Assembly (NCBI RefSeq): GCF_003952505.1
Contig: NZ_CP034450.1
Location: forward strand, 3,968,001-4,032,000
Reading direction: 5' to 3'
DNA from: Mesorhizobium sp. M4B.F.Ca.ET.058.02.1.1
Lineage (GTDB): Bacteria > Pseudomonadota > Alphaproteobacteria > Rhizobiales > Rhizobiaceae
Length of the DNA stretch: 64,000 nt
Positions 59,736 through 60,912 of the stretch are shown piece after piece. The stretch's first letter is position 1. Every line of letters starts with the position of its first letter. The translations under genes and the position numbers were made by a program. A model generated the notes under the pieces. That model was not told the origin of the DNA and did no database searches. It was given only the letters and a program-made list of their open reading frames with translations.

Positions 59736-59760
59736 GGCCCCTCATCCGCCCTTCGGGCAC
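59736..59760 (+). repeat. Left half of a family D repeat split by IS110
   Basis: GGCCCCTCATCCGCCCTTCGGGCAC resembles the start of the elements at 63074-63131 (CCCTCATCCG ... CCACCTT). The expected continuation is found 1.1 kb away at 60888, on the far side of the IS110 element. Confidence 0.7.
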
Positions 59761-59762
59761 CT

Positions 59763-59940
59763 TTGTAACTTGTCCCGTGCCGACTCTGCTATTGCAGCAG
59801 GTGCGGTGGCGGACGAGAGACCGGAGCATCTTTGGGCCTTGAAGCCCGTGGGAGAGCGAGGGTCTTCGTCCGCCGTTCCATCGACCCCGAACAGTCGCCT
59901 GGGCCGCAAGCGAAGCCCGATTAGGCAAGGATGGGATAGG
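59763..59940 (+). ncRNA. Candidate IS110 bridge RNA
   Basis: GGCGGACGA-g-AGACC (59808-59822) pairs with GGTCTTCGTCCGCC (59861-59874), a 14-bp stem with one bulge. Inside it, 5' side GCATCTTTG (59826-59834) matches the left junction GCACCTTTG (59757-59765) with one wobble-compatible change, and 3' side GGGAGAGCGA (59850-59859) is the exact complement of the right junction TCGCTCTCCC (60883-60892). Further on, ACAGTCGC (59891-59898) equals the element's right terminus (60879-60886). These fit target- and left-donor guides. I could not identify a convincing right-donor guide. Confidence 0.72.
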
Positions 59941-60870
59941 ATGGAAATCGTTGTTGGCATCGACGTTTCGAAGGATCGGCTGGATGTGCATGTTTTGCCG
60001 TCCGGTGAAGCGTTTTCGGTTGGTAACGACCATGCCGGGGTGGAGGAGCTGGCTCGACGTCTTGCAGCCTTTTCTCCGACGGCAATCGGATTGGAGGCTA
60101 CGGGAGGCTACGAGCAACTGGCGGTCGCCACTTTGGCGAGCGCCGGCCTTTCGGTTGTCGTGGTCAATCCAGCGCAGATCCGGGCCTATGCCAATGCGCT
60201 CGGCAAGCGGGCCAAGACCGATCCGATCGACGCTGCCGTCATCGCAGCCTTCATAGCTGCGACCAAGCCGGAACTGCGGCCGCTGCGCGATGCCGAGACC
60301 AGGACGTTGGCCGATCTCGTCACGCGCCGGCGCCAGATCGTGCAGATGATCGTGGCCGAAGAGAACCGCGCCCGCACGGTCAACGCAAGACAGGCGCAAA
60401 AGAGCATCAAGCGCCTGCTCGCCGCGCTCAGGCGTGAGTTGGAAAGCCTCGATGCCGACCTGGACGATCATATCCGCAAGTCGCCGCTCTGGCGGGTCCG
60501 GGAAAAACTGCTGTCCTCCGTGCCAGGCATCGGTCCCACCGTTGCCCGCACCATGATCGCCGAGATGCCGGAGTTGGGCAGCCTCGACCGGCGCCAGATC
60601 GCAGCGCTTGCAGGTCTCGCACCATGGACGAGGCAGTCCGGCACATGGCGTGGCAAGAGCTTCATCGGCGGCGGCAGGAGCCGCGTGCGCGCCGTCCTCT
60701 TCATGGCTGCCCTCGTCGCCATACGCCACAATCCGGTCCTCAAGGCCTTTCGCGACCGCCTCGTCGAGGTTGGCAAGCCGAAGATCGTCGCCGTCGTGGC
60801 CGTCATGCGAAAGCTGCTGACCATTCTCAACGCCATCATCCGCGACCAAAAACCATGGCAAACAGCTTGA
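59941..60870 (+). CDS. IS110-family transposase (recombinase)
   Basis: 309 aa, intact. N-terminal RuvC-like DEDD domain (Asp8 in [10 protein letters not shown], Glu52 in GLEATGGYE, Asp94 and Asp97 in [13 protein letters not shown]), coiled-coil middle, and C-terminal Transposase_20 domain with helix-hairpin-helix [14 protein letters not shown] and the probable nucleophile Ser233 ([10 protein letters not shown]). AAGGATGGG lies upstream of the ATG. Works with a bridge RNA that specifies target and donor. Confidence 0.95.
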
Positions 60871-60887
60871 CAGCCAAGACAGTCGCT

Positions 60888-60912
60888 CTCCCCGTGAACG
60901 GGGAGAAGGACG
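60888..60912 (+). repeat. Right half of the family D repeat split by IS110
   Basis: CTCCCCGTGAACGGGGAG followed by AAGGA, a perfect short hairpin. With the left half at 59736-59760 it reconstitutes a typical element. The CDGSH gene stop codon is immediately beyond. Confidence 0.75.

Follow-up and report, generated by a model that had tools for sequence, protein, structure and literature searches.

The 64,000-nucleotide stretch of DNA analyzed here (the window) carries, at positions 59764 to 60885 of the forward strand, an intact IS110-group element that starts with TGTAAC and ends with ACAGTCG. Judging from its sequence and those of its relatives, this is almost certainly a complete insertion sequence whose left end encodes a bridge RNA, one pairing with both a REP-like palindrome and the joined ends of the element itself and thereby guiding the recombinase. 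In the proposed mechanism, the element would circularize and a promoter would form at the joined ends. The left end would then be transcribed, mainly from this circle promoter, into a bridge RNA of roughly 160 to 175 nt. Its target loop would pair with the dispersed palindrome GGCAYC-YT-CTCCC, its donor loop would pair with the joined ends ACAGTCG-CT-TGTAA, and the recombinase would exchange strands at the dinucleotide core. Transcription, transcript length, formation of a ribonucleoprotein, and catalysis are expected here by analogy with the relatives and IS621. The anatomy of the element, the conservation of its RNA stems, the covariation of guides with flanks and donor ends, and the empty sites were observed in the sequences compared.

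The recombinase gene (59941 to 60870, forward strand) encodes 309 amino acids with the Pfam domains PF01548 (DEDD; 1.8e-28) and PF02371 (Transposase_20; 6.2e-20). Among PDB sequences, the protein matched ISCro4 (3.1e-39) and IS621 (5.7e-36), and its residues D8, E52, D94, D97, and S233 aligned with the catalytic residues of IS621 in the PDB alignment. An IS110 element had been read here in the preliminary description, which was made from the sequence alone, and the domains, the kinship with IS621 and ISCro4, and the catalytic residues agree with that reading. The left end (LE), from 59764 to the last base ahead of the ATG, is noncoding and 177 nt long, and the right end (RE), from the stop codon to 60885, comprises 15 nt. 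Assignment to the IS1111 group, in which a long RE carries the RNA, was rejected because the RE is this short and the full-length match of the RNA model lies in the LE. The boundaries are supported by the junctions of relatives and by the three copies in the element's own genome, which encode identical proteins at three loci and are all inserted in one type of REP-like palindrome. The left flanks of these copies end in CTTCGGGCACC, CTTCGGGCACC, and CTGCCGGCACC, and the right flanks start with CTCCCCGTGAACGGGGAG in two copies and with CTCCCCGTGAAACGGGGAG in one. At the window copy, the left target (LT) is GGCACC within the REP-like repeat (59756 to 59761, forward strand), as read from the sequence and the empty sites of copy 3. 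The right target (RT) is CTCCC (60888 to 60892, forward strand), the start of the intact hairpin CTCCCCGTGAACGGGGAG. Inverted REP-like repeats were also seen immediately upstream of the element (59557 to 59679), where the minus strand gave weak, sub-threshold Rfam matches (DUF3800-IV and mir-2545).

The left end very probably carries a bridge RNA, as indicated by its folding and conservation. The predicted fold of 59776 to 59937 had an energy of -75.2 kcal/mol compared with -64.2 kcal/mol for shuffled sequences (z, -2.57), and 1 of 200 shuffles was equally good. The target-binding loop (59808 to 59874, forward strand) has a 14-bp outer stem, formed by 59808 to 59816 and 59818 to 59822 with 59861 to 59865 and 59866 to 59874, and an inner stem (59834 to 59837 with 59844 to 59847). 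The donor-binding loop (59876 to 59936, forward strand) likewise has an outer stem (59876 to 59882 with 59930 to 59936) and an inner stem (59900 to 59904 with 59915 to 59919). In an alignment of 40 distinct left ends, the outer stem of the target loop was paired in 89.4% of cells with compensatory changes, 8 of its 14 pairs being altered on both sides, and the outer and inner stems of the donor loop were paired in 93.9% and 88.0% of cells, respectively. The covariation of the whole structure was 0.175 compared with 0.117 for shuffled alignments (0 of 500 as high), and the structure paired 80.2% of cells but at most 53.3% when slid along the alignment. RNAalifold, run unaided, recovered the stems of both loops with 27 pairs, 12 of which were changed on both sides. 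The region of a 5' stem-loop (59776 to 59805, forward strand) is weakly supported in the alignment; it folds in the element's own sequence but is absent from the RNAalifold consensus of the 40 left ends, and as written it paired 46.3% of alignment cells. A covariance model of the alignment gave 43 matches at an E value of ≤0.05. These fell in 42 of the 58 loci taken from more distant relatives, and several of the loci are copies of one element. An Rfam search returned four matches, all below their own gathering scores and none credible as a bridge RNA. The 14-bp stem claimed earlier is thus present, and the left-end structure is conserved in relatives. Together with the covariation of the target and donor guides described below, this conservation supports the IS621-type order of target loop and then donor loop that had been proposed.

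The relatives were collected with two sieves, the first taking tblastn matches with at least 52% identity that reached a protein end and the second retaining those that had at least 55% identity and a left end that could be recognized, with the LE 140 nt or longer. This left 56 distinct sets of junction and loop sequences representing 32 loop types, with best tblastn segments 58 to 100% identical to the window protein, 52 usable right flanks, and 53 usable left flanks. Left ends were located by TTGTAA preceded by C or T, TTGTAAC, TCGTAAC, or TTGTAAG, patterns that largely force the second core base to T and leave the first one free. Right ends were located by ACAGTCG or ACAGT[AC].C, with the core left unforced.

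Both target guides covaried with the flanks. The right target guide (RTG), GGGAG with core-pairing AG (59850 to 59856, forward strand), was paired at all five positions at 48 of 52 sites, 47 of them by Watson-Crick pairs only, and at least four positions were paired at 50 of 52. None of 20,000 permutations of the flanks over the 52 usable sites was as good, although this and the other permutation figures overstate certainty and are not true probabilities, since related elements are not independent. When one value was taken per distinct 5-mer (14 in total), the mean was 4.33 compared with 2.35 for permuted flanks (0 of 100,000 as good). Examples of guides with their flanks are CATTC with GAATG, GAGGT with ACCTC, GAGGA with TCCTC, and CAGCC with GGCTG. 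The exceptions were L189 (0/5), L143 (2/5), and L168 and L171 (4/5 each). L189/L072, from a Hyphomicrobium metagenome-assembled genome, is the only one of the 52 sites with no paired position; its loop contains GCCGTAG at another place, a segment that would fit the flank CTACGGC. The left target guide (LTG), GCATC with core-pairing TT (59826 to 59832, forward strand), showed a weaker relationship, with five paired positions at 19 of 53 sites and at least four at 36 of 53, wobble pairs included; with one value per distinct 5-mer (20), the mean was 3.77 compared with 2.62 (0 of 100,000 as good).

These results bear on the earlier reading of the loop. Its 5' side had been said to match the left junction, and GCATC-TT indeed fits GGCACC-TT through one G-U pair. 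Its 3' side had been described as an exact 10-nt complement of the right junction; GGGAGAG followed by CGA is present, but it divides into 5 nt of guide, 2 nt pairing with the core, 2 nt of handshake guide, and 1 extra base. A comparison of loops and flanks among relatives had been suggested as a check, and in it both guides exceeded every permutation, the right one strongly and the left one more weakly.

Two other explanations of the left end and its matches were weighed against guidance by RNA. The left end could be a structured leader that controls translation of the recombinase, with the palindrome recognized by the protein. A Shine-Dalgarno-like AAGGA (59927 to 59931) does lie 9 nt upstream of the start codon and is partly embedded in a conserved stem (helix 6, the one paired in 93.9% of cells), and the targets of the window element are palindromic repeats. 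We consider this explanation very improbable because, among relatives with homologous recombinases, loop segments follow flanks that lie outside the element, a relationship that protein recognition does not predict. Still less probable, in our judgment, is common descent, by which the loop and one ancestral insertion neighborhood would have been inherited together. In its favor, the RTG GGGAG is common to 14 of the 32 loop types, and their available right flanks start with CTCCCC. However, copies of one loop type occur in different flanks, and the RTG match remained above all 100,000 permutations when each distinct guide was counted once. In addition, L155, a relative with 61% identity, occupies a repeat of identical sequence with its insertion point one base further left (GGGCAC-CT-TCTCC), and its guides are shifted as well. 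It has the right guide GGAGA-AG in place of GGGAG-AG, and its left guide pairs at 4/5 positions at the best of three registers and at 2/5 at the usual register.

The evidence for guidance by RNA also extends to the donor side. The left donor guide, ACAGTCG followed by C (59891 to 59898, forward strand), was compared with the left donor (LD), ACAGTCG, at the end of the element (60879 to 60885, forward strand). A comparison by shared words was discarded since its chance level was high (at least 8 nt shared in 75% of own pairs, 35% with other loci, and 19% with shuffled sequences), and a motif-based test, in which the same motif class was demanded of guide and end, was used instead. The test used 36 of the 43 model matches and left out 7, namely, five copies of elements already included, a second match in L037, and a partial match in L084. 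The guide motif was found in 35 of the 36; setting aside L055 and L087, which have no LD-like motif, and L038, which has two (one identical), left 32 testable loci of distant relatives. The guide heptamer was identical to the end heptamer in 28 of these 32 loci, across six donor types, compared with a mean of 6.6 and a maximum of 16 in permutations (0 of 20,000 as good), and the four mismatches were one and the same C/T difference. The segment ACAGTCGC had been described as identical to the last 8 bases before the CT core; it is present at 59891 to 59898 and ACAGTCG-CT at 60879 to 60887, but the identity covers the last 7 donor bases and the first core base. For the right donor guide, of which the preliminary description had found no convincing case, we tentatively propose TTAGGCAAG (59921 to 59929, forward strand). 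This less firm candidate was picked by eye on the IS621 pattern, would set 9 nt against seven donor bases (CTTGTAA), skipping two of the nine, and has no obvious fit, by eye, in some distant relatives.

The bases next to the guides resemble handshake guides. In IS621, according to PMC11208158, the dinucleotide that follows the RTG core base-pairs with the donor once the strands have been exchanged. By this role, the CGA that follows GGGAGAG in the window element is best read as a two-base target-loop handshake guide, CG (59857 to 59858, forward strand), complementary to donor positions 6 and 7 (C and G opposite positions 7 and 6), plus one base. Of the 56 sets, 55 have C as the first base behind the RTG core AG, and donor position 7 is G in the window element. 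The second base is unconserved (T in 16, C in 15, G in 14, and A in 11 of the 56 sets) and is G in the window element. The donor-loop handshake guide would be GA (59930 to 59931, forward strand), which is complementary to target positions 6 and 7 when these are TC; all 40 aligned left ends have GA here, and LT position 7 is C at 48 of 53 sites. Both of its bases would pair with a GGCATC target, but only one would pair with GGCACC of the window.

The element starts with TGTAAC at 59764, and its target core is TT (59762 to 59763, forward strand), retained at the left junction. At the right junction, the donor core CT is retained (60886 to 60887, forward strand), as in all 53 right junctions available in the 56 sets. 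In a register scan of the LTG, pairing peaked at TT 59762 to 59763 (loop positions 8 and 9), with a mean of 3.60/5 compared with at most 2.56 at seven other registers. Empty sites orthologous to copy 3 were inspected at 8 of 11 other loci, and 7 of the 8 read CACC-TT-C. Six were exactly GGCACCTTCTCCCC (GGCACC-TT-CTCCCC), one was GGCACC-TT-CGCCCC, and one (L266) was TGCC-TT-CTCCCC, with the occupied site reading GGCACC-TT-TGTAAC ... ACAGTCG-CT-CTCCCC. The preliminary description had instead started the element with TTGTAAC, with a CT core at 59761 to 59762 and the target GGCAC-CT-CTCCC. That placement makes both junction cores identical, and single-T sites do exist: among 34 matches of the repeat pattern in the own genome, one is single-T, and the CCACC repeats listed for the related genome G017 are mostly single-T, even though the left junctions of the copies in that genome are CCACC-TT. 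Nevertheless, it is quite unlikely, as TT precedes CTCCCC or CGCCCC at all eight empty sites inspected, 32 of the 34 own-genome repeats are double-T, L078, whose left end is the same, has the junction GGCATC-CT-TGTAAC, and the LTG register peaks at TT. The repeat and the position had thus been nearly right, but the target is one base away, at GGCACC-TT-CTCCC.

The picture at the other two copies was less simple. For the window copy, none of 29 other loci read via the downstream gene contained an alignable empty site, and the intergenic stretches differ. At copy 2, where the occupied locus reads GGCACC-TT, the four orthologous sites inspected (of 11) all read GGCATC-CT-CTCCC with a different hairpin, possibly because of gene conversion or because the ancestral allele was another one. 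In this copy (L009), the element and a few flanking bases look like a canonical repeat set inside a locus of the GGCATCCT type seen in the four other genomes inspected, and gene conversion between IS copies is possible.

With the TT target core, donor and target cores would differ in part of the lineage. Both junctions were available in 51 sets, of which 37 had CT at both, 14 had TT at the left and CT at the right, and none had TT at the right; the 14 TT/CT sets are partly non-independent, and empty sites were examined for copy 3 among them. Outside the 56 sets, the right end of L191/L079 reads ACAGTCG-CC. The right junction of L138 reads ACAGTCC-CT in place of ACAGTCG-CT; the altered base at donor position 7 is the one found at target position 7 of this same element, as would be expected from retention of the other strand after exchange. 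In the published structure of IS621, top-strand cleavage follows the core and bottom-strand cleavage takes place at a different position, which by our reading of the numbering is on the other side of the core. With such cuts at different positions, mismatched cores should give heteroduplexes, and the uniform outcome of TT at the left and CT at the right suggests a strand-biased resolution of the TT/CT heteroduplex.

Strain G001 contains a near-identical element (98% over the 168 residues compared) with the same loop sequences and the left junction GGCATC-CT (L078 and L029). Six 3'-end fragments in this genome (L126, L127, and L129 to L132) adjoin CTCCCCGTATARTRACGG in five cases, two of which are identical over the stretch shown, and CTCCCCGTTAACGGGG in one. 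A single G-U pair allows the left guide GCATC-TT to fit either site; for GGCACC-TT it falls in the guide, and for GGCATC-CT in the core. Identical loops at unrelated targets, named earlier as an argument against guidance, were not found among these copies: all three own copies lie in the same repeat type, and the G001 copy lies in a related repeat that fits by G-U pairing. We tentatively suggest, giving it slightly less than even weight, that in this lineage a donor with a CT core is recombined with a target whose core is TT, with the junction cores inherited by the top strand, and that wobble in the left guide lets one RNA address both the GGCACC-TT and GGCATC-CT families. If this is true, top-strand inheritance of the core implies a strand bias in resolving or repairing the intermediate.

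The joined ends contain a candidate promoter. When the RE was joined to the LE in silico, the sequence TTGACA-17 nt-TAACTT was formed from a -35-like box overlapping the stop codon (60867 to 60872, forward strand) and a -10-like box (59766 to 59771, forward strand). Over 37 distinct junctions, the hexamer 17 nt before the -10 position started with TTGA in all 37 and was exactly TTGACA in 14. The -10 hexamer was usually TAACTT, the remaining junctions having TAACTC or TAAG.. Conservation of TTGA may come in part from the overlapping stop codon. Coding, guide, and promoter signals overlap in this element, with the Shine-Dalgarno-like AAGGA lying in the 3' side of the donor loop and the stop codon in the -35-like box.

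Altogether, both the target and the donor of this IS110 element could be deduced from DNA sequence and tested against its evolutionary relatives. The set of relatives, mostly from rhizobia and their relatives, provides 14 distinct natural RTGs, six donor-end types, and natural cases of unequal donor and target cores, and such a guide set is useful for learning the rules of bridge-recombinase reprogramming. Among the open-access journal papers listed, judged by titles and the starts of abstracts, none gave an account of this element or of IS110 guides in Mesorhizobium.

The window element shares with IS621 of E. coli, also of the IS110 group, a recombinase homologous over residues 5 to 306. By the account of IS621 in PMC11208160 and PMC11208158, it also shares a predicted LE-encoded RNA with the target loop followed by the donor loop and the core represented in both, putative handshake guides, REP targets, and a predicted circle promoter, such a junction promoter being reported for IS621, as well as the candidate 9-for-7 right donor guide. 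It differs in its target and donor sequences, in combining a TT target core with a CT donor core, and in having both putative target-loop handshake bases complementary to the donor; in addition, its RTG is 7 nt counting the core, where that of wild-type IS621 is given as 4 bp. ISCro4 is the closest solved recombinase, a likeness of protein sequence only. Another relative, L171 of Methylorubrum (NC_012811), appears to be ISMex17, judging from the name on hit H15, which covers the same query range as H14 (L171) with similar identity. This ISMex17-type element has the same LE layout, the ACAGTCG-CT end, and the TGTAAC start, and its guides agree with the flanks at its insertion site (LTG, 5/5; RTG, 4/5). 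It differs in having 58% protein identity (best segment) and the guides TTAGCCT-CT and AAGTG-AG, which correspond to another target. The bridge RNA mechanism is already published, and the window element and its relatives are a well-supported additional case of it in the IS110 group.
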